Positions 2,556 through 36,811 of a DNA stretch of 64,000 nt are shown here, piece after piece. How positions within the stretch are numbered: the first letter of the stretch is position 1; each line of letters begins with the position of its first letter. Both the position numbers and the translations under genes were made by a program. A model generated the notes under the pieces. It saw nothing but the letters and a program-made list of their open reading frames with translations. It made no database searches and had not been told where the DNA came from. The DNA comes from Oscillospiraceae bacterium (GTDB lineage Bacteria; Bacillota; Clostridia; Oscillospirales; Ruminococcaceae): positions 120,177-184,176 of the forward strand of contig JAGAJN010000005.1 of the NCBI GenBank assembly GCA_017828975.1, in the 5' to 3' direction.

Positions 2556-3761
2556 TTATATGTTTCCGTACATCATTTCGAGATAGCTTTCCTGTGCCGC
2601 CGTAGTTTCGGTTATTTCCGTGGGGACGATTATCAGCGGCACGGTCATTTCATCATCGGTAAGACCTGCATGAGAAGCAAGGTGTTTGGACTTCGGCTTG
2701 GAATTGAGCGTCCTGTATCTTATGACCTTTTTACCGATAGCACAGGCAACGAAATCTCCCAGAAAATCGTAAGTCTTTCGGTGGGTGCGTCCCCCGCCCA
2801 GAATCTGCTTGTCAAGAAGCTCTCCCGATGTCATCAGCTTGAAATCCTTGCCGAGAGCCTTGTTGAACTGCCAGCGGAATTCGTCCATAAGCTCGCTCTT
2901 TACAAAGAACGCCGCCGCTCTGCCCTCTATGGAAGGCGGCATGGACAGGCAGCTGTCTATCTCGGGAATGGCATTGATGAAAACCTCTTCCTCAATGTCG
3001 ATCATGCCGTGATCGGCGGTGATGATAAGCAGCGTATCTGTCAGCGACTCTGCCAGCTGCTGCAAGCCCTCGTTGAATTCCAGCATTGCTGCCTTTGTTT
3101 CGGCAGATGTACAGCCAGTTTTGTGCATAATTTCGTCGGGATTAGTCCAGTAAGCAAGCGTCAGAGTGTTCTGCTCGGTGGCGCATATCTTTTTGATAAG
3201 ACTACACATTCCGCCAAAGCTGTCCGCCCTCTTGCGGATAACTCCCATTTCGGGGATATTCACGCCCGCAGGCTGTATGGCAAACGGCTGAACGGCTATC
3301 TTCCGTGACACGGCAATGTCCTTGAAAATGGTTTCGTAAGGCATAACGAAGCTTCCGATATTAGGCTGGGTCATAGGCTGCTTGGTGAAGCTGTCATTAT
3401 TTGTAAGCACATCGATGCAGCGGCAGAATTCCTTGAAAAACAGCGACCAGCCCAGCCAGCCGTGTTCATTGGGAGATACGCCTGTGTATATGGAAGTCAT
3501 AGCAGCAGCGGTGGTGCTTGGATAGACCGTGGTTATCTTCTGGGAAATATTCTTCCGCAGAAAGTCCCCTCTGCCGAGATTTTTTTCGATGACAGAAGCT
3601 CCCATACCGTCCATTACGATAAGGACGATGTTTTTGTAACCCCTGTCAAGCTCCTTGTCAAGAACAGGCAGCGTTTTGTATTCGATCGGTGTGGAATAAT
3701 ACCGTCTTATGGAGGAAATGACGTTAAGCAAACATTTATCGTAATTAGGATAGACCAGCAT
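2556..3761 (-). CDS. Alkaline-phosphatase superfamily phosphodiesterase/nucleotide pyrophosphatase-like protein
   Basis: A 401-residue protein of the type I phosphodiesterase/nucleotide pyrophosphatase fold. Near the N terminus IVMDGMG supplies a metal-binding Asp, STTAAAMTS supplies the likely Thr nucleophile, and ITADHGMID supplies later metal ligands. There is no signal peptide or membrane segment, so it is likely cytosolic. It sits 13 bp after ruvA and 7 bp before the extended ruvB frame, inside the operon. The substrate is unknown; a nucleotide or phosphosugar diester is possible. Nothing visible explains a role in recombination. Confidence 0.8.
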   Translation of the reverse strand: MLVYPNYDKCLLNVISSIRRYYSTPIEYKTLPVLDKELDRGYKNIVLIVMDGMGASVIEKNLGRGDFLRKNISQKITTVYPSTTAAAMTSIYTGVSPNEHGWLGWSLFFKEFCRCIDVLTNNDSFTKQPMTQPNIGSFVMPYETIFKDIAVSRKIAVQPFAIQPAGVNIPEMGVIRKRADSFGGMCSLIKKICATEQNTLTLAYWTNPDEIMHKTGCTSAETKAAMLEFNEGLQQLAESLTDTLLIITADHGMIDIEEEVFINAIPEIDSCLSMPPSIEGRAAAFFVKSELMDEFRWQFNKALGKDFKLMTSGELLDKQILGGGRTHRKTYDFLGDFVACAIGKKVIRYRTLNSKPKSKHLASHAGLTDDEMTVPLIIVPTEITETTAAQESYLEMMYGNI

Positions 3762-3774
3762 AACGCTCCCCCTC

Positions 3775-4383
3775 TCAAAGCCTCATTCCGATTTTTTTCA
3801 GCGACTGCTTGATAAGCTCCTCGGTAGACAGCGAAGCGTCCAGACCGGAAACGACCGTCGCAGCCTCCGCCTGAGTATATCCGAGGACAACAAGAGCGGC
3901 AATGGCTTCTCCCGTGTTGGTATTTGCCACCGCTTCCGTAACTGCGGAAAAATCCACCGAGGAGGGCGCTGAAAGCTGTTCCTTTGCGATCTTGTCTTTC
4001 AGCTCCAGAACTATCCTCTGAGCGGTTTTCGTGCCGATTCCCTTTGATTTGGTGATGGTCTTGTAATCTCCCGTTGCAACGGTAAGTGCAAATTTTTCGG
4101 GAGATATGTCCGACAAGATGGACAGAGCCGCCTTCGGTCCCACGCCCGACACAGAAAGAAGCATCTGAAAGCATCTCAGCTCCTGCTGTTCGTAAAAGCC
4201 GAACAGGTCAATGCCGTCCTGAGTAACGTTCAGATATGTATAAAGCTTTGCCTCGGAGCCAATGCCCTTCAGCTTTGACAATGTTGTAAATGTTGTTCGG
4301 CAGGCATAGCCAACACCACCGCATTCGATTACCGCAAGATTCGGTTCGGTATGAACTACCTCACCCTTTACGCTGTATATCAT
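3775..4383 (-). CDS. ruvA: Holliday junction DNA-binding protein RuvA
   Basis: Tetrameric junction-binding subunit that loads RuvB. The 202 residues show the family layout: an N-terminal OB-fold beginning MIYSVKGEV, two helix-hairpin-helix motifs in the middle (VSGVGPKAALSIL and SKGIGTKTAQRIV), and a C-terminal RuvB-contacting domain after a flexible linker. It follows ruvC by 16 bp and precedes the phosphodiesterase, in one transcription unit read leftward. Confidence 0.96.
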   Translation of the reverse strand: MIYSVKGEVVHTEPNLAVIECGGVGYACRTTFTTLSKLKGIGSEAKLYTYLNVTQDGIDLFGFYEQQELRCFQMLLSVSGVGPKAALSILSDISPEKFALTVATGDYKTITKSKGIGTKTAQRIVLELKDKIAKEQLSAPSSVDFSAVTEAVANTNTGEAIAALVVLGYTQAEAATVVSGLDASLSTEELIKQSLKKIGMRL

Positions 4384-4399
4384 CAGAAAAACTCCCTTG

Positions 4400-4900
4400 T
4401 CATTCTAAATTATATTTTACGCTCGCCGACGAATGTCCGTGACAAATAGCAATAGCCAGCGCATCAGCCGTATCATCGGGCTTCGGAACGGAAGCAAGAC
4501 CGAGTATCTGCCTTGTCATCTCCATGACCTGCGGCTTTTCCGCACGCCCATATCCGACTACCGACTGCTTCACCTGCAAAGGCGTATACTCAAAAACGGG
4601 AATTCCCCTCTGCGCCGCCGCAAGCACCGTAACACCTCTCGCCTGCGCCACGTCGATGCCCGTTTTCTGATTGGTGTTGAAAAACAGCTTTTCAATTGCC
4701 ATGCACTCGGGCTTGTATTTGTCCAAGATCTCGCACATATCGGTGTATATGTCATTCAGACGGAGCTCAAACTTAACTCCCGCTTCGGTAGTTATCGCTC
4801 CGAATGCTGCGGGACGGAATTTGTAACCATCATAATCCAGCACGCCGAAGCCCACAATTGCATAGCCCGGGTCAATTCCAAGAATTCTCAAATATTTCAC
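4400..4900 (-). CDS. ruvC: Holliday junction resolvase RuvC
   Basis: Dimeric RNase-H-fold endonuclease that cuts Holliday junctions. The 166 residues carry the four catalytic acids in the expected spacing: D10 (GIDPG), E70 (IEKLFF), D143 and D146 (PDDTADA). The start is a GTG with an AAGGA ribosome binding site 5 bases upstream. It is the first gene of the ruv-glmM operon and is divergent from pheA; the shared 140-bp gap holds a promoter for each side. Confidence 0.96.
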   Translation of the reverse strand: MKYLRILGIDPGYAIVGFGVLDYDGYKFRPAAFGAITTEAGVKFELRLNDIYTDMCEILDKYKPECMAIEKLFFNTNQKTGIDVAQARGVTVLAAAQRGIPVFEYTPLQVKQSVVGYGRAEKPQVMEMTRQILGLASVPKPDDTADALAIAICHGHSSASVKYNLE

Positions 4901-4941
4901 TCCGTTCCTTCGTCATATTCAAAAATGCTCTTAGATAATTT

Positions 4942-4970
4942 ATTATACCACAAACTGATAAATTAAGCAA
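4942..4970 (-). promoter_or_regulatory. Sigma-A promoter of the ruvC-ruvA-ruvB-glmM operon
   Basis: Minus strand: -35 TTGCTT, 17-bp spacer, -10 TATAAT with an extended TG one base upstream (TGGTATAAT). It lies about 40 bases before the ruvC GTG. Confidence 0.7.
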
Positions 4971-5008
4971 GAATTTTATTTAAACTTAGAGAAATTTCTC
5001 AAAAGTTC

Positions 5009-5037
5009 TTGTAATTCACGGCGAAATCAGTTATAAT
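5009..5037 (+). promoter_or_regulatory. Sigma-A promoter of the pheA-ispD-ispF operon
   Basis: -35 TTGTAA, 17-bp spacer, -10 TATAAT. Transcription should begin near 5044, which makes the upstream ATG at 5043 an unlikely start for pheA and supports the ATG at 5082. Confidence 0.7.
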
Positions 5038-5081
5038 ATACTATGAAATACTTTGCAGAAATGATGAAAGGCTTGAAAATA

Positions 5082-6197
5082 ATGGATTTAACAGATCTCA
5101 GAAACGAAATCGACAGCATTGACGAGGACATACTTAAACTGTTTCTCAAAAGAATGGACGTATGCAGGCAGGTAGCCGACTACAAAAGAGCGCACTCCCT
5201 CCCCGTTATGCAGGGCGGACGTGAAGCGCAGGTCATCGAGCGCATCAGGGAAATGTCCCCCGATAACATCAAGGACGGCTCCGAGGTGTTGTTTGCGAAC
5301 ATTATGGACATCAGCAAAAGCTTACAGCAGATAGAGCTTGCCAAGACAGCCGAATTTCCCGTACCCGAGAGATTTATCCCCGAAAATGCAAAGCTTATCG
5401 CCGTTCCCGGGACTGTCGGCTCATATTCCGAAAAGGCATGCAGAAAGCTGTTCCCAAATCAGGAGATAAGATTCTACCGTGAATTTTCCGATGTGTGCAG
5501 GGCTGTCGAAAACGGCGAAACAGACTTTGGCATACTTCCAATACAGAATTCCACCGCAGGCACGGTCGATGAAACCTACGATCTCATGGGCAAATTCGAT
5601 TTTTACATAACCTCTATGATACGGGTAAGCATCTCCCACTGTCTTGCCGCCAAGCAGGACACCGATGTTTCGGAGATAACCGCAGTCTATTCCCACGAAC
5701 AGGCGCTTCACCAATGCTCCGAATTTCTCCGTGAAAGCGGTCTGACCACACATGAATACGCAAATACCGCACTTTCTGCGGAGTTAGTAAAGAACAGTCC
5801 CGAAAAGCTCGCCTGCATCTGCTCCGAGGACTGTGCCAAGCTGAACGGTCTGAAAATTATCAGATCGGACATTGCCAATGCGGGAAGAAATTCCACAAGG
5901 TTTATCTGCATTTCCAAGAAATATATGGTTTCCGATGACGCCGATACGGTTTCCGTTTCCCTCAGCATTCCCCATGTCAAGGGTTCGCTTTACCGTCTGC
6001 TTTCGAGATTTTACGTTAACGGACTTAATCTTCGGAGGATCGAAAGCAAGCCCATTGCGGGAAAGGATTTTGAGGCTGTTTTCTATCTGGATTTCGACGG
6101 AAATTACGGAAATGTCAAAACTGTTTCGCTTATCAGAGAGCTTCAAAGGGAGCTTTCCTTCTTCAAATATATGGGAAATTTCAAGGAGATAATGTAA
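5082..6197 (+). CDS. pheA: Bifunctional chorismate mutase/prephenate dehydratase (P-protein)
   Basis: Makes phenylpyruvate from chorismate for phenylalanine synthesis. The 371 residues begin with an AroQ chorismate mutase domain (DLTDLRNEIDSIDEDIL, about 1-85). A prephenate dehydratase domain follows, with GTVGSYSE and the NSTAGTVDET motif. A C-terminal ACT domain ends the protein, where IESKP corresponds to the phenylalanine-binding ESRP motif, so feedback inhibition is likely. I start at 5082 because AAAGG lies 10 bases before it and the promoter -10 overlaps the region just before the earlier ATG at 5043. The stop is directly followed by ispD. Confidence 0.93.
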   Translation: MDLTDLRNEIDSIDEDILKLFLKRMDVCRQVADYKRAHSLPVMQGGREAQVIERIREMSPDNIKDGSEVLFANIMDISKSLQQIELAKTAEFPVPERFIPENAKLIAVPGTVGSYSEKACRKLFPNQEIRFYREFSDVCRAVENGETDFGILPIQNSTAGTVDETYDLMGKFDFYITSMIRVSISHCLAAKQDTDVSEITAVYSHEQALHQCSEFLRESGLTTHEYANTALSAELVKNSPEKLACICSEDCAKLNGLKIIRSDIANAGRNSTRFICISKKYMVSDDADTVSVSLSIPHVKGSLYRLLSRFYVNGLNLRRIESKPIAGKDFEAVFYLDFDGNYGNVKTVSLIRELQRELSFFKYMGNFKEIM

Positions 6198-19882: not shown

Positions 19883-22800
19883 TTACTTGCGTATACGTCT
19901 GCGGATAAATACAAATGCAGTTCCCGCTGACAGAACAATAGCTGCGATAACAAACGCAGATACAGGCTCTGCCTCGACCGCTTCGGAAATATCCTCAGCA
20001 CCTGCTCCGGAAGAAACATCCTCGGTGCCTTCCTCAGGTTTTGTTTCGGGCAATGGCGTGAAGATCACACCCGGTCCTTCACTGGGAAGTGTGGGACGTA
20101 TTCCGGGATTAGTGTCCGGCTTGTCCTGAGGTACATCACTGGGATTGTCCTCAGGCTGATCACCGGGCTTATCTTCGGGCTGATCGCCGGGCTTGTCCTC
20201 GGGTTGATCTCCGGGCTTGTCCTCGGGCTGATCGCCGGGCTTGTCCTCGGGCTGATCGCCGGGATTGTCCTCGGGTGAAGCCTCATCAAACATTATTACG
20301 GAGTCTGTCTTGATGCCGTTTACCAAAATATTCTTTGAGGAAGTAACAGTAAACCGAATATCCGTTGCAACAAGATAACCTTCGGGAGCGACCTCCTCGT
20401 GCATGATGTATTCACCTTCGGGAAGTCCCTCAATAACAGTCGATGATCGTCCCGAAATGTATGTCATAGAAGTGCCGTCCTTTGAAACAAGACGAGCGCC
20501 CGAGCCAAGCTTGATATTAATATCCGAGCTTGTGAAATCAGTACCCGATACAACGATCTTCGCACCTGCCAGCTCACCGCCGCCGAAGCTGCGCTTACTG
20601 AGAATTACCTTTGAAGGAGCTGGACCGTTGGATTTGGCTTCATCGACCATAGTTACAGCATTTACCTCGCTGCCGCCAACAAGTACCTTGCCATCTGCGG
20701 TCACGGTAAATGTAATATCATTTGCAACAAGGTAGCCATCGGGAGCTGCGTCCTCGTGCATGGTGTAGTTACCTGCGGAAAGTCCCTTGATAACTGTGGG
20801 TGTTGTGCCTGAAATGTAAGTGATGTAATAACGTGCATTGGCAACTAAAGAAGCGCCTGTTCCAAGCTGGATATCAACACTCTGGCTTCTGAAATCTCCG
20901 CCCTTGATAGTTATCTTTGCACCGGGCAGTTCATTGCCGCCTACATCTGTTTTGCTGAGAGTAACCGCAAACGGAACAGTTACCTCAGGCTTTGCTTCAT
21001 CGACCATTGTTACGGAATTTACTTCATTGCCGCCAACAAGTACCTTGCCGTCTGCGGTCACGGTAAATGCAATATCCGTCGCAACAAGATAGCCGTCGGG
21101 GGCTGCTTCCTCGTGCATGGTGTAGCTGCCTGCGGGGAGTCCCTTGATAACTGTTGGTGTCGTTCCCGAAATGTAGGTCAGAGATGTGCTGTTCTTAATA
21201 ACACCCGAGCCGTTTTCGCCGTAATTAACGGTTATATCGGATCTTGTAAAATCAGCACCGCTGACGGTGATCTTTGCACCTGCCAGCTCATTGCCGCCAA
21301 CATTCTGCTTGCTGAGCGTTACGGTTGACGTAACAACAGTCACGCCCTGCTCCTTATCAACCATAGTAACAGCTGTTACCGCACCGCCGTCTACAAGGAC
21401 CTTGCCGCCGTCGGTTATAACGAAGGTAATGTCGGTAGACTTGAGATAGCCGTCGGGAGCTGCTTCCTCGTGCATCTTGTATGTGCCTGCGGGAAGTCCC
21501 TTGATAACTGTGGGTGCAGTTCCCGAAATATAGGTCATGGAAACATTGTTTTTGCTGATAAGGGAAGCACCTGTACCGAACACTGTGGTAATACCCGAAT
21601 CTGTGAAATCTGCGCCGATAATGGAGATCTTGGCACCTGCCAGCTCTTCCCCGCCGACATTCTTCTTGCTGAATGTTACAACAGAGGGCAGCTGAACGGT
21701 ACCGGGAACATTTTCAATTTCAAGCCTGTCATCGCTCACAAGAGATTCCACACCGGGGTAATTTGTTGTATTTCCCACCGATTTGAAGATGATATACTCG
21801 GGGAAATCACTGCCCACAGCAAATCCGTCGGGAACGACGGTTTCCGTCACCTTATAAACAACATCGTTCTTGAAGCCGACTGCTGTGTTGGTGAGCTGAC
21901 CGTCAGCACCTGTGTAGGGCTTACTTGTGATAGTTGGGTAAAGCGTGGGGTCCATAGGATTTCCCGTAACTGCCCCGCCTGCATACTCAACAGGTGTAAA
22001 TGTGAATTCCGCACCCGAAAGCTTTATGCTTAAGCCGCTTGAATTCTTGTAGAATTTTCTGATATTAATGGAAAGATTGTTGCCTGTTCCGCTGAATTTA
22101 CTTTCAAGGACTACGCCAAAGCTTTCCTTGAACACATTAGCAGCAGTATCGGAGCCGTAAAGCAGCTCAACACGGTTTCCGCCCTCCTCATCGGTCAGGA
22201 CATCGCCCACCTGCTTGCCAACGATCTTTGCGTAATAGGTTATCTTAATTCGCTTGCCGTCGGGAAGTCCCGAAATGGTGAAGCTGTGTGCGGAGTTTTC
22301 GGTAAATGTGTAAGTAGTATACTCCGTTCCGTAGTCTATCTCCACCTTCATCGGATAATTTTCGTTTTTCAGAAGAGTAAGGCAGCTGCCGAGAGTATCT
22401 CTGATAGAAATATCTCCGCCAAGCACAGCACCCGAATTATTCGCAATTATCTCATACTTAACAACATTCTGGCTGCTGTCGGTACTGTAAATGTAATCCT
22501 TTTTGAGCATATCGGAAACATTTCTGTCCTTGTATTCCCATCTGAGGACATTGTTTCCCACAACGCCGTCAAGCTTCATGTCCGCATAATTCCAGACATA
22601 GCAGCTGTTCCAGCCCTCAACATAGAACTTTTCGGGATCATACTCTGCATTGTAAACAAGGTCAACGTTCTTGTTTGCTGCGAATAAGCCTGCCAACTCA
22701 GGGGTAATTGTAACGGTAAAGTCAGTTCTCAACTCTCCTGTTACAGTATTGCTTGACATTCCGACAGATGTCGCCAGAGCCGAACCGTCACAGTAAAGAG

Positions 22801-24712
22801 CTGCATCTGTGATATTCGCACCCAGATCAAGCTTGTCCGAAGCAGTCCATGAATTCATATCTGCCGCAGAATTTGCCCACTTGTTTGAGATCACCATTCT
22901 GTCGCTTATCTCTATGACCTGACCTACCGTTGCGGAAGCAAGCTCGCTGCCATTGAGCGTGATAGTCCACTTGGACTTAGGCATTTTTCCCAGACTTCCG
23001 TCACTTTTCTTATCTGCGATACCGTCAATAACGTCAACAGAATTCTCGGCATAGTCACTTACCGTTACATCATTGCCGTCTGCAGTTTCTTTAAAAACAG
23101 CATTAACGGTGTTAGGATAGGTTTCGGCTGCGCCTGTAAAAGCATTTGCCTTAGTGAAATATGTAAGCTCTATAATACTTCCGACAGCAAGTGAACTTAC
23201 ATTATTCAGCTTAATGTTAAGAGTGCTCCAGTCACCCATATAGGTATCTTTAGTGTAATCGGAGGTTTCGCTGCCGTTAATCTTAACGATTATTGGATAT
23301 GCCGAATCGTCAACTACGGGTTTATGCTTGTTAACAATTAAATCTTGGAATTCCAAAGAATACAGCGGTGTCTTGACCTCATAGGTGACCTTCCACTGCA
23401 TATATCCGTTAGAGCTTACATTTCCGACTGCTTCCTTAGAAACAGAAGTGGGAACGCCAACGACCTCTACGGATACATCGCCCGTACGAACAGGCTTACC
23501 CTCAATTGTGCCTTCCACAGAGTTTTTGTAATACTTCTTGGAAGCAGATGTTGAAGGTGTAAATGTAGTCTTATAGGTATATTCGTAATACGGGAGCCAA
23601 CCGCTGACATATGTAGCATTGTCAATGAATGTGCCCGCAGAAACAGCTGCCCCGCCTGCAAAAATGCTGCCCGGATCGGTCTGTTCTGCACCGAGAGTAT
23701 CGGTAAAGCTATCACCGCCCAGCAGAGCCTTATCCTGCTCCTTGTCACCGGTGAAAAAGCTGTGGCGCACCTGTACCTTCCAGGTGATCTCACCCGTAGT
23801 ATTATCGGCAGTACCGCTCTTACCGATGCTTGCATTTGTATAATAATTATACTTTACCTCGGGGGTAGTCTTTTCGGCGGAAACACCGTTCTTATTGAAG
23901 GTGACCTTTGCCTTGTTGGAGCCTGTACCCGCAGTGATTGAAGCCTTGGGTATCTCCTGAGTATAATTAATGGTTCTCTCCTCATTGGGATTCAGCGAAG
24001 CAATATCCACAGGGAATGATGCACCTGTAATATCACCAAGACCGGTGGCAATATCCTCAATATGGATATCGGTTATGGGAACATCTCCCTTTGCTGTCAC
24101 CTTAATGGTGTAATCCTGATAATACTTCCCGCCTACAAAGCGAACATTTCCGTTTGCCCACTTCTGAATGTCAAGGTCGCTGACAGTTACAACGGGAATG
24201 TTGGGAACAAGCGCACCCGACACATTTGCAAAGCCTACATTGACCTTCTGGTCGGGATCGCCTGTCTTTACAACTGTGACCTTACCGTTAGACTCACCCT
24301 TGAATGTGATATTGCTGTGCCTGCTGGCGTAATTACTGTCAAGAGAGAGATTAACAGTTCCGTCTGTGATGGAAATTGTTCCGAGGAACTCGCCTAATTC
24401 ATCATTGAGTACCACGTCCCCGCTTGAATCAAGCTGAACATTAGTCTGACCGAGCGGACATGAGAAATTCAGCTGCCCCGATGTCAGTGCCGCATTGTCA
24501 ACAGTTCCTTTGAAACGGAGCACCACGCGTTCTCCGCCGCTTATTGAAGTAACCGAACTTGCATTAACACCGTCAATAGTAAATTCGAGAACTTCAAAAG
24601 CTATTGCATCAGCCGCCGAGCTCTGCACCGTCCCCAAAGGCACAGAAAAGAACACAAGAAGCACTGCCAGCACCACATTCAATATTCCGGTACCGATGGA
24701 TTTTCTTTCCAT
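19883..24712 (-). CDS. Large cell-surface protein with tandem SpaA/prealbumin-like domains
   Basis: A 1609-residue exported protein. After a signal peptide (about 1-35) come several Cna/adhesin-like beta domains (about 40-870). Five SpaA-like prealbumin domains follow: one near 870-990 and four units of about 120 residues starting near 1007, 1127, 1247 and 1367 (each with GGxELxGAKI and MHEEAAPDGYL). A P-E-D-K-P-G-D-Q tandem linker comes next. A membrane helix ends in RRRIRK. Such domains usually carry intramolecular isopeptide bonds and form adhesive stalks. No standard LPXTG lies next to the helix and no sortase is nearby, so the anchoring mode is unclear. It has its own consensus promoter. 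Confidence 0.85.
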   Translation of the reverse strand: MERKSIGTGILNVVLAVLLVFFSVPLGTVQSSAADAIAFEVLEFTIDGVNASSVTSISGGERVVLRFKGTVDNAALTSGQLNFSCPLGQTNVQLDSSGDVVLNDELGEFLGTISITDGTVNLSLDSNYASRHSNITFKGESNGKVTVVKTGDPDQKVNVGFANVSGALVPNIPVVTVSDLDIQKWANGNVRFVGGKYYQDYTIKVTAKGDVPITDIHIEDIATGLGDITGASFPVDIASLNPNEERTINYTQEIPKASITAGTGSNKAKVTFNKNGVSAEKTTPEVKYNYYTNASIGKSGTADNTTGEITWKVQVRHSFFTGDKEQDKALLGGDSFTDTLGAEQTDPGSIFAGGAAVSAGTFIDNATYVSGWLPYYEYTYKTTFTPSTSASKKYYKNSVEGTIEGKPVRTGDVSVEVVGVPTSVSKEAVGNVSSNGYMQWKVTYEVKTPLYSLEFQDLIVNKHKPVVDDSAYPIIVKINGSETSDYTKDTYMGDWSTLNIKLNNVSSLAVGSIIELTYFTKANAFTGAAETYPNTVNAVFKETADGNDVTVSDYAENSVDVIDGIADKKSDGSLGKMPKSKWTITLNGSELASATVGQVIEISDRMVISNKWANSAADMNSWTASDKLDLGANITDAALYCDGSALATSVGMSSNTVTGELRTDFTVTITPELAGLFAANKNVDLVYNAEYDPEKFYVEGWNSCYVWNYADMKLDGVVGNNVLRWEYKDRNVSDMLKKDYIYSTDSSQNVVKYEIIANNSGAVLGGDISIRDTLGSCLTLLKNENYPMKVEIDYGTEYTTYTFTENSAHSFTISGLPDGKRIKITYYAKIVGKQVGDVLTDEEGGNRVELLYGSDTAANVFKESFGVVLESKFSGTGNNLSINIRKFYKNSSGLSIKLSGAEFTFTPVEYAGGAVTGNPMDPTLYPTITSKPYTGADGQLTNTAVGFKNDVVYKVTETVVPDGFAVGSDFPEYIIFKSVGNTTNYPGVESLVSDDRLEIENVPGTVQLPSVVTFSKKNVGGEELAGAKISIIGADFTDSGITTVFGTGASLISKNNVSMTYISGTAPTVIKGLPAGTYKMHEEAAPDGYLKSTDITFVITDGGKVLVDGGAVTAVTMVDKEQGVTVVTSTVTLSKQNVGGNELAGAKITVSGADFTRSDITVNYGENGSGVIKNSTSLTYISGTTPTVIKGLPAGSYTMHEEAAPDGYLVATDIAFTVTADGKVLVGGNEVNSVTMVDEAKPEVTVPFAVTLSKTDVGGNELPGAKITIKGGDFRSQSVDIQLGTGASLVANARYYITYISGTTPTVIKGLSAGNYTMHEDAAPDGYLVANDITFTVTADGKVLVGGSEVNAVTMVDEAKSNGPAPSKVILSKRSFGGGELAGAKIVVSGTDFTSSDINIKLGSGARLVSKDGTSMTYISGRSSTVIEGLPEGEYIMHEEVAPEGYLVATDIRFTVTSSKNILVNGIKTDSVIMFDEASPEDNPGDQPEDKPGDQPEDKPGDQPEDKPGDQPEDKPGDQPEDNPSDVPQDKPDTNPGIRPTLPSEGPGVIFTPLPETKPEEGTEDVSSGAGAEDISEAVEAEPVSAFVIAAIVLSAGTAFVFIRRRIRK
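20126..20277 (-). repeat. 24-bp tandem repeats coding for a Pro/Asp/Gly linker
   Basis: About six imperfect copies of a 24-base unit encode P-E-D-K-P-G-D-Q (some with N for K) before the membrane helix of the surface protein. Repeats of this kind change copy number by slippage and would vary stalk length. Confidence 0.85.
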
Positions 24713-30747: not shown

Positions 30748-33330
30748 ATGAAACGAATTACCATTGGAATGACCGCCCACGTTGATGCGGGAAAAACCAC
30801 ACTTTCCGAAGCTATCCTCTATCAAAGCGGAGAAATACGCTCTCTGGGTCGGGTCGATAAGGGAAACACCTTTCTTGACACCTTTGAAATTGAGAAAAAA
30901 CGAGGGATAACCATCTTCTCAAAGCAGGCGGTGGCGCATTTCGGAAGCGGCGAATATACCCTTCTGGACACTCCGGGACACGTCGATTTTTCCGCCGAAA
31001 CGGAACGTGCGCTCAGCGTCCTTGACTGCGCCGTGCTGGTCATAAGCGGAACGGACGGCGTTCAGAACCATACGGAAACCCTCTGGCGGCTGCTTTCGAG
31101 ATACCATATCCCCGTGTTCATTTTCGTAAATAAGATGGACATTTCCCACCTTGAACGGCAAAGTCTTTTAAACGAGCTGAAAACCCGTCTGAACGGCAGC
31201 TGCATTGATATGGACCCCCGCCGTGAACCCGATGAAATGTTTGACGAGCTTGCTCTTTGCGGCGAGGATATGATGGACAGTTTTCTTGAAAACGGTACTG
31301 TCCCGGACAGTATGATACAAACAGCCGTTGCGGAAAGACGGCTGTTCCCCTGCTATTTCGGCGCTGCCTTGAAGCAGCAGGGCGTTGCCGAGCTTATGGA
31401 GGGCATTGACAGGTATTTTCCCGAACCGAAACGGTCTGCTGAATTCGGTGCAAAGGTCTTTAAGATAACCGAGGACGAGCAGGGAAACAGGCTCACTCAT
31501 CTCAAAATAACAGGCGGCAGCCTTAAGGTCAGGACTGCCCTTGAAAGCGGCGAAAAGGTCAATCAGCTGCGTATATATTCGGGTACGAAATTCACCACAG
31601 TCCCCGAAGTCTTTGCGGGAACGATATGCGCTGCGACGGGACTTTCCGAAACTAATGCGGGCGACGGTCTGGGATTTGAAAAGAACTCCGCCCGACCTGC
31701 TCTGGAGCCTGTTTTGTCCTACAAGGTGATTCTTCCTCCAGAAGTCAGCGTAAATACCGCACTTATTCAACTCCGAAAGCTGGAGGACGAGGATCCGCAG
31801 CTGCAAATTTCCCTGAATGAAAAGCTTAACGAAATTCACCTGCGGCTTATGGGCGAGATTCAGCTGGAGGTGCTGAAAAATGTCATTGCTGAACGCTTCG
31901 GATATAACGTAGAGTTCGGACGGGGCAGCATTGCGTACAAGGAAACAATTTCGGGAATTGCCGAGGGTGTGGGACATTACGAACCCCTGCGGCATTATGC
32001 GGAGGTGCATCTTATCCTGTCCGAGGGTGAACCGAACAGCAGTCTGCGCTTTGAAACCAACTGCCGTGAAGAAATTCTCGACAAAAACTGGCAGCGGCTT
32101 ATTCTCACCCATCTTGAAGAAAAAACGCACCTCGGCGTTCTGACAGGCTCGCCCATAACCGATATGAAAATCACTCTTGCTTCGGGACGGGCACATCTGA
32201 AACACACGGAGGGCGGTGATTTCCGTCAGGCGACCTATCGGGCTGTCCGTCAGGGACTCAGAAGTGCGCAAAGTGTCCTGCTTGAACCGTGGTATGATTT
32301 CACTTTGGAAATACCTAAAGAGTGTGCGGGACGTGCGCTGAACGATCTTCAGAATATGTCCGCAGAGTTCACATCTCCCGAGATCATTGAGGAAAACGCC
32401 GTTATAAAGGGGTCTGCACCCGTTTCGGAGATAATGGATTATCAGTCGGAGGTAACTGGCTATTCACGGGGAAAAGGACGTATCTCCTGCGAATATAAGG
32501 GATACTTCCCCTGCCACAACAGCGATAAAGTCATCTCGGAAATTGCCTATGACTGCGACGGCGACCTCGATAATTCCGCCGACAGTATCTTCTGTTCCCA
32601 CGGCGCAGGATTTAACGTAAAATGGAACGAAGTCCCGCAGTATATGCACCTTGAAAGTGCGCTAAAGCCGAAAAAAGAAGAAGAAACCGTCCGTGAGCGC
32701 CATCCCGCATACAGCGGAAAGCCTGCGGACGACAAGGAGCTTATGGAGATATTCGAGCGAACCTACGGCAAAATAGACCGAAATCCCCGCTATGCAATGA
32801 AAACGGAAAAAACCGTTCAGCCAAAGCCGCCGAAAGCATCTCCTATGCCAACAGGTCCCGAGTACCTCCTTGTGGACGGCTACAACATAATTTTTGCATG
32901 GGACGAGCTGAAAAAAATCGCCGCAGACAACCTTGACCTTGCCCGAAGTATGCTCATAAACGCCCTTGCGAATTACCGAGGATATAAGCAAAACAACGTA
33001 ATTCTGGTCTTTGACGCATACAAGCTAAAGGGAAACACGGGCAGCGTTGAGGACGCATCGGGAATAAGCGTCGTGTACACAAAAGAGGCTGAAACCGCCG
33101 ATATGTATATCGAAAAAACCACCCATCAGCTGGCGAAAAACTGCCGTGTCCGAGTTGCAACCTCGGACGGCGCAGAACAGATGATAATCCTCGGCAGCGG
33201 CGCATTCCGAATGTCCGCAGCTGAATTATACGAGGAGATAAAGACTGCCGAAAAGGCTATCCGAAATATGGTGGACAAGCTGCCAACAGGCGGGCGGCAG
33301 TTCCATAAAATTGAGCGAAAGGAAGATTAA
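30748..33330 (+). CDS. EF-G/TetM-like ribosomal GTPase fused to YacP/Rae1-like NYN nuclease domain
   Basis: An 860-residue protein. Residues 1 to about 640 form a TetM-class translational GTPase: AHVDAGKTT (10-18), RGIT (52-55), DTPGH (74-78), NKMD (128-131), then EF-G domains II-V ending with a CSHGAGFNVKW segment. After a ~60-residue charged linker, residues ~704-850 match YacP/Rae1. They carry LLVDGYNIIFAW, VFDAYK, ETADMYIEKT and VATSDGAEQ, so all acidic residues expected at the active site are present. TetM relatives enter the ribosomal A site and Rae1 cuts mRNA there. The fusion suggests GTP-driven delivery of the nuclease; this is inference. It should not be annotated as simple tetracycline resistance. 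It has its own GGAAG ribosome binding site after a terminator. Confidence 0.88.
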   Translation: MKRITIGMTAHVDAGKTTLSEAILYQSGEIRSLGRVDKGNTFLDTFEIEKKRGITIFSKQAVAHFGSGEYTLLDTPGHVDFSAETERALSVLDCAVLVISGTDGVQNHTETLWRLLSRYHIPVFIFVNKMDISHLERQSLLNELKTRLNGSCIDMDPRREPDEMFDELALCGEDMMDSFLENGTVPDSMIQTAVAERRLFPCYFGAALKQQGVAELMEGIDRYFPEPKRSAEFGAKVFKITEDEQGNRLTHLKITGGSLKVRTALESGEKVNQLRIYSGTKFTTVPEVFAGTICAATGLSETNAGDGLGFEKNSARPALEPVLSYKVILPPEVSVNTALIQLRKLEDEDPQLQISLNEKLNEIHLRLMGEIQLEVLKNVIAERFGYNVEFGRGSIAYKETISGIAEGVGHYEPLRHYAEVHLILSEGEPNSSLRFETNCREEILDKNWQRLILTHLEEKTHLGVLTGSPITDMKITLASGRAHLKHTEGGDFRQATYRAVRQGLRSAQSVLLEPWYDFTLEIPKECAGRALNDLQNMSAEFTSPEIIEENAVIKGSAPVSEIMDYQSEVTGYSRGKGRISCEYKGYFPCHNSDKVISEIAYDCDGDLDNSADSIFCSHGAGFNVKWNEVPQYMHLESALKPKKEEETVRERHPAYSGKPADDKELMEIFERTYGKIDRNPRYAMKTEKTVQPKPPKASPMPTGPEYLLVDGYNIIFAWDELKKIAADNLDLARSMLINALANYRGYKQNNVILVFDAYKLKGNTGSVEDASGISVVYTKEAETADMYIEKTTHQLAKNCRVRVATSDGAEQMIILGSGAFRMSAAELYEEIKTAEKAIRNMVDKLPTGGRQFHKIERKED

Positions 33331-34504: not shown

Positions 34505-35560
34505 TTATCCGTTGATATCAACGTCTGACATATTCGCCGAAATGGTGATAGGTATCGCACCATTCGGATTTTCCCTGACAAAATCTGACAGATCCTCTCC
34601 GTTGACCGTTATATCGGACATTTTGGAACCGCTTTCCTTGATGCTGTACTCACCCGGAGAACGGTTGAGATTTAACTCAACATCTCCCATACTTACGTTG
34701 ATGTCCGCTCCCGATTCGATCGCTCCGCTGTATGAAATATCTCCCGCCTTGCAGCCGATATTCAGCTTATCTGCATTTACATTGCTCATCTCGCAGTTTC
34801 CGCCTGTGGAACTTACCGTCAGATTAACCGAAAGAAGATCGTTTATGATCATATCTCCCGCTGCGATCTCAGAGGTAAAGCCTTCGGCAGTACAGCCGTC
34901 AAGATGCGCATCACCCGCATTGACTGTAACCGACGCATTGTCCGCTTTCAGATTGTAGACCGAAAGCTCACCTGCATTTAAATTCAGCTTGACGGTTCCG
35001 CAGCTGAGGTCGGACACAGAAGCCGTTCCCAGATTAACGGTAACATCAAAATTATCAACTATCATCTGCGGAACGGTTATATAAAGCATTCCGCCGTCAT
35101 TATCGAAAAAGCTTTCATCGGAATTTATGCCGTATTCAATACTCATAATTCCATCAGTCATGCTTCTGTTATATTGCAGAACATCTGAAGTATTTTCAAC
35201 GCTGAACGAATCTCCCGATACTATCTCTACCTCTCCCGCATTGCATGTGATATTTACGGCAGTGATGCCGCTCATATCAATTATCTCCGCATTGCCCGAG
35301 GGAGCGTATTCCTCTGCAACATAAGTGGTTTCCATTGTCGTAGCCGTATCGGCGGAATAACGTGATGAACTCGCACCCGCAATTCCGATAGCCATAATTG
35401 CAGCCCCCGCAACCACCAAACTTCCCGCCACAATAAGCGGGTTTTTCTTTTTTCCTGCGGGACGATCGGGCAAAGCTTTCTCCTCCTGAACGGCAGCATA
35501 CTGAAAATCGCCTACCTGCATTTCGGCATACTGTTGCTGTTCCTTTTCCTCATATTTCAT
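34505..35560 (-). CDS. DUF4097-type membrane protein with extracellular beta-helix
   Basis: A 351-residue protein with a ~40-residue cytosolic start, one membrane helix (~41-62) and an outer domain of short beta-strand repeats rich in Asn, Asp and Ser (DUF4097, adhesin-like right-handed beta-helix). It overlaps the DUF1700 gene by ATGA. PadR-DUF1700-DUF4097 operons are common in Firmicutes and thought to respond to envelope stress; the exact role is unknown. Confidence 0.8.
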   Translation of the reverse strand: MKYEEKEQQQYAEMQVGDFQYAAVQEEKALPDRPAGKKKNPLIVAGSLVVAGAAIMAIGIAGASSSRYSADTATTMETTYVAEEYAPSGNAEIIDMSGITAVNITCNAGEVEIVSGDSFSVENTSDVLQYNRSMTDGIMSIEYGINSDESFFDNDGGMLYITVPQMIVDNFDVTVNLGTASVSDLSCGTVKLNLNAGELSVYNLKADNASVTVNAGDAHLDGCTAEGFTSEIAAGDMIINDLLSVNLTVSSTGGNCEMSNVNADKLNIGCKAGDISYSGAIESGADINVSMGDVELNLNRSPGEYSIKESGSKMSDITVNGEDLSDFVRENPNGAIPITISANMSDVDING

Positions 35561-36495
35561 TGAAATCTGTCCCTCCGTTCAAAAAATTCACGGATCTTTT
35601 TATATGTATTTCCTATCCAGCCGCCAAGTGCGGGGATTCCCTTTTTGATGACCTGCTTAACAAGAAGTCCGAGAGCAATGGCAAATCCCGCCGAAAGCAG
35701 CGCACCGCCCACAGCCATTGCCGCAGCAAACAATCCATCATTGATAAGCAGCGGAACAGACGCTATCAGCAGAGAGGGAGCAGCAAGCACCAGTCCCACC
35801 TCGATAAATCCCAGCATAAGCAGTCCCATCACAATAAAAACTGCCAGAATGACCGCCGCAACACCGCCGATAACGATAAAGGGCAAAAGGAAAATAAGCC
35901 CCATGAGCGCACCGATAAGCGAGTAAACGCCCTTGGAACTGCCGCTTGTCCTGCCCGTCTGAGCGGTATTTGTCTGCTGACTGCCGTAATTGTAGTTATA
36001 GTTGTAATTCACATTTGCCGCATCGGAATTGTTTGCGTTTCCGCCGTCGCCATGAGAATGGGGCTGATAGGAAGAATTATTCTCCTGCGGCTTGCTAAGG
36101 TCGATAAATCCGCCGCTGTTATTTCCCGACGGCTGAGAAGCGACCTTTATCTCCATATCGGGCACAGGCTCGGGCTCCTTGTATTCCTGAGCACGGAAGC
36201 CTATGCTGTAAGGCTCATATCCCTCGTCCTCCGCCTTTTCTCTGCGGCAATTCTCGACAAAAAGCCGCTGAGATGCAGTTTCATTCTTTATGCTCCGTGA
36301 ATAATCGGAATTATCACAGAGAATAGCCCTTGCAAGCTCCACGGGACTGCCCAGATCGGCAATTACCGACTTAGCATTCTCCTCCCCTGCGTCGTTGAAC
36401 ATTTCTTCATAGAATGCGATCGCATTTTCACGGTCCTCAACGGGCATAGCGAGAAGCTCCGCCCGAAGCTGTGAAATGTAATCCTCCTTATTCAT
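35557..36495 (-). CDS. DUF1700-family membrane protein
   Basis: A 312-residue protein. The first ~75 residues are the DUF1700 helical domain (NKEDYISQLRAELLAMP, a conserved start). A polar, Asn-rich linker then leads to three or four membrane helices (~190-290) rich in Gly and Ala. I choose ATG 36495 because it lies 7 bases after GAGGTG, while the ATG two codons earlier is too close. It overlaps padR by 8 bases. It probably acts with the DUF4097 protein in the envelope. Confidence 0.8.
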   Translation of the reverse strand: MNKEDYISQLRAELLAMPVEDRENAIAFYEEMFNDAGEENAKSVIADLGSPVELARAILCDNSDYSRSIKNETASQRLFVENCRREKAEDEGYEPYSIGFRAQEYKEPEPVPDMEIKVASQPSGNNSGGFIDLSKPQENNSSYQPHSHGDGGNANNSDAANVNYNYNYNYGSQQTNTAQTGRTSGSSKGVYSLIGALMGLIFLLPFIVIGGVAAVILAVFIVMGLLMLGFIEVGLVLAAPSLLIASVPLLINDGLFAAAMAVGGALLSAGFAIALGLLVKQVIKKGIPALGGWIGNTYKKIREFFERRDRFQ

Positions 36496-36811
36496 CGCCA
36501 TTCACCTCGTCGTAAATAACATTGTCAATTCTGACCTTGAAAAGCTTCCATTCCTCCTGATAGAGCTTGAGCTGGAGCCTGCCCTTTTCGGAAACCCGAT
36601 AATAACGCCTGTTTCTGCCCATATACTCCATATCGTAGGATTCCAGACATTCGTCCTTTAAAAGCCTTCTCAGCACGGGATAAAGGGTGGATTCGGACAT
36701 TTCGATAGCCTTTCGTATTTCCTGAGTGATCTTATAACCGTAAGTATCCTCCTTTGCCACGATAGATAGCACAAGAGCGTCAAGCAGCGCTGCACTGACG
36801 GGAAATACCAT
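36488..36811 (-). CDS. PadR-family transcriptional regulator
   Basis: A 107-residue winged-helix repressor. The segment YGYKITQEIRKA, ESTLYPVLRRLLKD and the GRNRRYYRVSEKGR wing are diagnostic of PadR. It is the first gene of the PadR-DUF1700-DUF4097 operon. It lies just after a perfect sigma-A promoter whose spacer and -10 form a palindrome, so autorepression is likely. Confidence 0.92.
   Translation of the reverse strand: MVFPVSAALLDALVLSIVAKEDTYGYKITQEIRKAIEMSESTLYPVLRRLLKDECLESYDMEYMGRNRRYYRVSEKGRLQLKLYQEEWKLFKVRIDNVIYDEVNGDE

Follow-up and report, generated by a model that had tools for sequence, protein, structure and literature searches.

A conserved fusion of an EF-G/TetM-type GTPase with a YacP/Rae1-type nuclease in Clostridia, proposed to act on the ribosome

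A gene in a 64,000-nt stretch of contig JAGAJN010000005.1 (GCA_017828975.1, Oscillospiraceae bacterium; the window, to whose positions all coordinates refer unless a contig is named) encodes one protein in which a disordered linker joins an EF-G/TetM-type GTPase to a YacP/Rae1-type NYN nuclease domain. This fusion is real, it is conserved and it occurs widely; its function is proposed here, and the best explanation, to which we give about an even chance, is that one polypeptide serves as a ribosome-directed endonuclease. The observation of the fusion is not new, as Tet proteins that carry a YacP-like NYN domain have been in print since 2015, from ten Clostridiales species (Atkinson 2015, PMC4342817). 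The window protein comes from the same bacterial group and has the same architecture, Tet/EF-G domains in their usual order and then a YacP-like NYN domain, and very probably belongs to that set of proteins. That paper, which read the fusion as possible antibiotic resistance, predates the description of Rae1 as a ribosomal A-site endonuclease (PMC6613710, PMC12320835, PMC8266666), and the available text of PMC4342817 holds no such survey or analysis of tail, loop and selection; what is added here is the wide recurrence of the fusion, its invariant residues, the failed Tet cut-offs together with Lys485, and the missing Rae1-type tail. No further report of the fusion or of such a mechanism was found in the literature searched, a search outside whose scope the primary Rae1 papers lay.

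Architecture and conservation of the fusion protein

The gene and its parts, all on the forward strand, are as follows.

30748..33330, +: whole fusion gene with its stop codon, a single intact open reading frame (ORF) of 860 amino acids
30754..31422, +: GTPase G domain, residues 3-225 (GTP_EFTU profile)
31444..31671, +: EF-G-type domain II, residues 233-308
31768..31920, +: EF-G-type domain III, residues 341-391
31927..32271, +: EF-G-type domain IV, residues 394-508
32185..32226, +: tip loop of domain IV, G480-R493, GRAHLKHTEGGDFR, with K485 aligned to TetM Pro509
32275..32523, +: EF-G C-terminus domain (V), residues 510-592
32500..32649, +: C-terminal module, G585-H634, GYFPCHN ... FCSHGAGFNVKW ... 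H, common to unfused sister GTPases
32650..32859, +: linker, residues 635-704, modelled mostly with low confidence
32731..32769, +: linker helix with EL..IFERTYG, residues 662-674, conserved, in fused sequences only
32860..33285, +: YacP/Rae1-type NYN nuclease domain, residues 705-846 (PF05991 profile, fold)
33286..33327, +: final 14 residues, lacking the LExxR[RK] tail found in stand-alone YacPs

The preliminary description of this gene had proposed a TetM/EF-G-like GTPase fused to a YacP/Rae1-like NYN domain with its acidic motifs, and this stands: both halves are real, complete and conserved. PF05991 (YacP-like NYN) matches with 166.7 bits against a curated cut-off of 24.6, over profile positions 1-142 of 166, and comparison of fold and residues finds both the Rae1 fold and four acidic residues, the fold and catalytic Asp matching those of Rae1/YacP of Bacillus subtilis (5MQ8, 5MQ9). 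A chance ORF or assembly chimera was set aside because the fusion recurs in separate genomes.

An alignment of 70 fused sequences has K16, T17, D74, G77 and H78 of the GTPase and D710, D756, D785 and D807 of the nuclease invariant throughout, and judging from these residues both halves look active. Both modules are also constrained. In the closest pair (L054-L057), the ratio of non-synonymous to synonymous substitution rates (dN/dS) is 0.060 for the GTPase, 0.049 for the NYN domain and 0.149 for the linker; in the pair L083-L086 the values are 0.244, 0.080 and 0.428, all pairs other than L054-L057 being more divergent, with dS saturated in most. The linker, 76-105 residues long in the 56 fused sequences measured, varies except for a conserved island, the EL..IFERTYG helix (E664 in 67/70, I668 in 68/70), which could be a docking element for the nuclease or the ribosome. 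The C-terminal module (C589 in 69/70, C616 and W626 in 70/70) is absent from the Tet gene and the EF-G aligned with the fusion, and its Cys and His residues form a possible metal site.

The GTPase half resembles Tet(M) and Tet(O) in being a five-domain EF-G-type GTPase, with about 28% identity to an aligned Tet gene, and TetO and TetM are the nearest solved proteins; in the structure comparison of the whole model the GTPase fills the list of matches, and the lack of YacP chains in it carries no meaning. In a viral structure library only distant GTPases were matched. Tet proteins, however, have no nuclease, and the window protein stays below both curated Tet cut-offs (408 against 775 bits for NF012153, 272.5 against 1100 for NF033148), whereas a control, a Tet gene of the same bacterial family, exceeds both (824.8 and 1293.3). 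The half also shares with EF-G its order of domains, and the tip histidine of domain IV, which matters in EF-G, aligns with His483, a histidine in 70/70 fused sequences. Nearby, the TetM residue Pro509, described as overlapping bound tetracycline and displacing the drug, is replaced by Lys485, a lysine in 69/70 fused and 19/19 unfused sequences. With both cut-offs failed, the Pro509 loop replaced and the control gene passing, a Tet-type protection protein was set aside; so was EF-G proper, as TIGR00484 gives 287.5 bits against a cut-off of 659.4, and the genome carries a distinct EF-G gene on contig C4. A role in anti-phage defence was likewise set aside, with no PADLOC family matched at E 0.01.

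The end of the nuclease sets the fusions apart from Rae1. All 24 stand-alone YacPs have 64-67 residues beyond the last catalytic Asp, and 21 of them end in the pattern [hydrophobic][EQ]x[hydrophobic]R[K/R/L], with near variants recognisable by eye in the other three. The pattern occurs in one of the 70 fused sequences, 45 of which have 50 residues or fewer beyond that Asp, and is absent from the window protein, which has 53; a stricter pattern is found in 6/24 stand-alone and 0/70 fused sequences. The final Arg of the LExxR[RK] motif is R166 in B. subtilis Rae1, and R166P was found among efp suppressors along with rae1 and yacO frameshifts, a class judged to be loss of function (PMC6613710). 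The tail thus probably contributes to the action of stand-alone Rae1 on the ribosome, a role that the GTPase may have taken over in the fusions; the missing tail is indirect support for delivery of the nuclease by the GTPase.

Distribution, unfused relatives and genomic context

The fusion is the single YacP match in its own genome (94.67% complete). Within the family sample, 86 of 197 genomes have a YacP above the cut-off, and in 79 of these it lies in an open frame of 800 amino acids or more, the length counted as a fusion in the family, class and phylum samples (those retrieved were checked). None of the other seven YacP-bearing family genomes has a clear stand-alone YacP: the fusion is split by an insertion in G012, contains an in-frame TGA in G111, is interrupted by a run of N in G039, is divided between different frames of a short contig in G193, and is at contig ends in G007, G008 and G130. 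G094 has a second, sub-threshold match. In the class sample a YacP match occurs in 249/391 genomes, with 78 frames of at least 800 amino acids, 63 of 220 or less and 9 between among the 150 rows listed. Five genomes with a match have a second one (G522, G329, G332, G396, G437), G329 with two fused-length frames and G522 with one fused-length and one short frame. Beside the fusion, a second YacP is thus lacking in this genome and none in the family sample is clearly stand-alone, but in the class G522 has both forms. The phylum sample gave matches in 208/398 genomes, with both frame sizes and some fused-length frames outside the class. Named relatives among the best 80 of 590 matches are of Clostridia type and include Ruminococcus flavefaciens FD-1, Intestinimonas butyriciproducens, Anaerovorax odorimutans DSM 5092 and Fusibacter sp. 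3D3.

Two of the interrupted copies can be described further. In G012 an insertion of about 11 kb splits the fusion near its PCHNA motif (L175, C33:8500-18600; L037, C33:18500-29000) and bears a Tet-type gene that passes the curated Tet cut-offs. In the same-genus genome G111 (L068, C20:2000-12000, 3508-6192), whose fusion is 94% identical to the window protein over the GTPase, one in-frame TGA cuts the gene and is either an error or real.

The preliminary description had warned of easy misannotation as tetracycline resistance; the warning holds, because the fused gene on an Agathobacter rectalis megaplasmid is annotated as TetM/TetW/TetO/TetS tetracycline resistance. The Monoglobus pectinilyticus copy is labelled a translation factor GTPase family protein. 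Megaplasmids of Ligilactobacillus salivarius carry the GTPase without a nuclease (13 rows, H3-H15, about 49% identity over residues 1-636), of which H3 is labelled translation factor GTPase and the rest TetM/W/O/S.

Unfused sister GTPases, those of Clostridia and of the L. salivarius megaplasmids, have the same domain IV tip and the same FC..G.G..V.W module, and lack the linker helix and the nuclease. The family members are 43-50% identical to the window protein in fifteen cases and 56% in G060. We used quick trees with support by the SH-like approximate likelihood ratio test (SH-aLRT) only, and a GTPase tree without outgroups because the root obtained with Tet and EF-G outgroups, which have very long branches and draw some fused sequences at the base, is unreliable. 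In this tree 19 unfused GTPases form one side (SH-aLRT 100) and the 70 fused sequences the other, with two more on the fused side, G060 and G012, having lost the connection; the tree contains no L. salivarius rows. In the NYN tree the 70 fused domains stand together, and two stand-alone YacPs, L166 and L172, fall within their side or at its base. The simplest reading would be a single old fusion that was later lost in places; fission, exchange or two fusions are also possible because of where L166 and L172 sit. L166, which lies inside the fused side and retains its tail, comes from G438, where it is on a different contig from an unfused GTPase (L155), an arrangement that may reflect fission or the ancestral state.

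Upstream of the fusion lie two ABC transporter genes, a GDSL-type esterase with a CE2 domain and a polysaccharide deacetylase, and downstream a peroxiredoxin and TrmO. Other than the fusion itself, no family is found in as many as 4 of the 56 fusion loci (ORFs of at least 90 amino acids within about 3-5 kb, some loci being cut by contig ends and two retaining, by greedy choice, an overlapping ORF instead of the fusion), and an operon partner was set aside on this result. Stand-alone YacPs, in contrast, commonly have an rlmB-like neighbour (clustered in 16/19 loci), with further neighbours that, on a reading of the letters, appear to be Mini-III and sigH; MrnC, Rae1 and SigH lie within one region in B. 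subtilis (PMC8266666). The window fusion is away from rlmB, among different neighbours, and the rlmB-like locus of its genome (L285), which matched only the rlmB-like ORFs of stand-alone loci, has no adjoining YacP. Elsewhere in the window are a row of genes for a PadR regulator, a HAAS-domain protein and a DUF4097 protein (34505-36811, -) and an ORF of 1609 amino acids (19883-24712, -).

Proposed mechanism and alternative explanations

For ribosome binding, order of action, cleavage and rescue we infer the following course. The GTPase in its GTP form would enter a paused or blocked ribosome at the A site, and there domain IV, with its conserved H-x-K-H-T loop, would probe or clear the decoding centre. 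GTP hydrolysis would let the GTPase leave the A site, and the NYN domain, tethered by the flexible linker, would take its place and cut the A-site mRNA, as stand-alone Rae1 is described as doing. The cut complex could then pass to tmRNA-SmpB, both encoded, adjoining each other, on contig C10 of the genome. The two parts would act in turn, since they cannot share one A site. The missing tail, the TetM loop comparison and the constraint on both halves support this Rae1-based reading.

Several observations weigh against it. The GTPase and the nuclease would each be expected to occupy the one A site, which leaves no simultaneous action, and the predicted structure (pTM, the predicted template modelling score, 0.57) does not place the halves relative to each other. 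In L083-L086 the GTPase is less constrained than the NYN domain. The missing tail could instead be a sign that the fused nuclease no longer acts in a ribosome-dependent way; tail-loss events are few because the fused sequences are related, and two stand-alone YacPs close to the fused clade retain the tail. YacP is dispensable, as 111/197 family genomes are without it. The 16 full-length GTPases without NYN in the family sample (G169 and G182, found in pieces, left out) come from genomes of which none has a YacP, and among the 15 unfused-GTPase genomes listed for the class (G402, a frame with stops, left out) nine have a YacP and six have none. The GTPase, as a clade often without any YacP, can therefore work without the nuclease. 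The earlier suggestion that the GTPase brings the nuclease to the ribosome is supported in part, by the completeness and conservation of both halves and indirectly by the missing tail, with the GTPase-only sister clade and the shared A site against a simple version of it.

Among other explanations, the GTPase might only recruit the NYN domain to ribosomes or nascent subunits, with the cuts made outside the A site, in rRNA, free mRNA or tRNA precursors; an older prediction for YacP was a role in rRNA and tRNA maturation (quoted in PMC4342817). This we consider unlikely: the lost Rae1-type tail, the unplaced NYN part and the long linker speak for it, and the fold and catalytic Asp against it, being those of Rae1, described as an A-site cutter. 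Alternatively, two independent functions may have been joined for co-expression, the GTPase and nuclease acting apart. That the GTPase occurs without NYN, whether or not the genome has a YacP elsewhere, that YacP stands alone in much of the class and that the connection was lost in G060 and G012 would fit; the linker helix conserved in fused sequences only, the tail missing from them, and the separate clades of fused and unfused GTPases do not, and we regard this as rather improbable. Quite improbable, too, is protection against tetracycline or another A-site drug with the added RNase assisting, the possible RNase-aided antibiotic resistance suggested in 2015, when the proteins were classed as Tet (PMC4342817). 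The closest solved proteins and the Tet names that annotation pipelines put on relatives agree with that suggestion, whereas the failed cut-offs and the lysine at the Pro509 position do not, and several family genomes carry the fusion plus a further Tet-like gene.

Beyond the ribosome-directed endonuclease, a more far-reaching form of the proposal can be put forward tentatively, as rather doubtful. The protein would be an A-site endonuclease that delivers itself, driven by GTP: its GTPase would seek out paused ribosomes, clear them and then bring the tethered Rae1-type blade to the codon, with recognition, clearance and mRNA cutting merged into a single timed event. In many gut Clostridia it would be a main factor of ribosome quality control that goes unnoticed under the name of tetracycline resistance. 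If true, the ribosome docking of the nuclease would have shifted from a short tail to the GTPase, the resistance label would need correction, since naming as in A. rectalis would distort resistome counts, and many Clostridia would use a translation factor in which sensing and cutting are combined.
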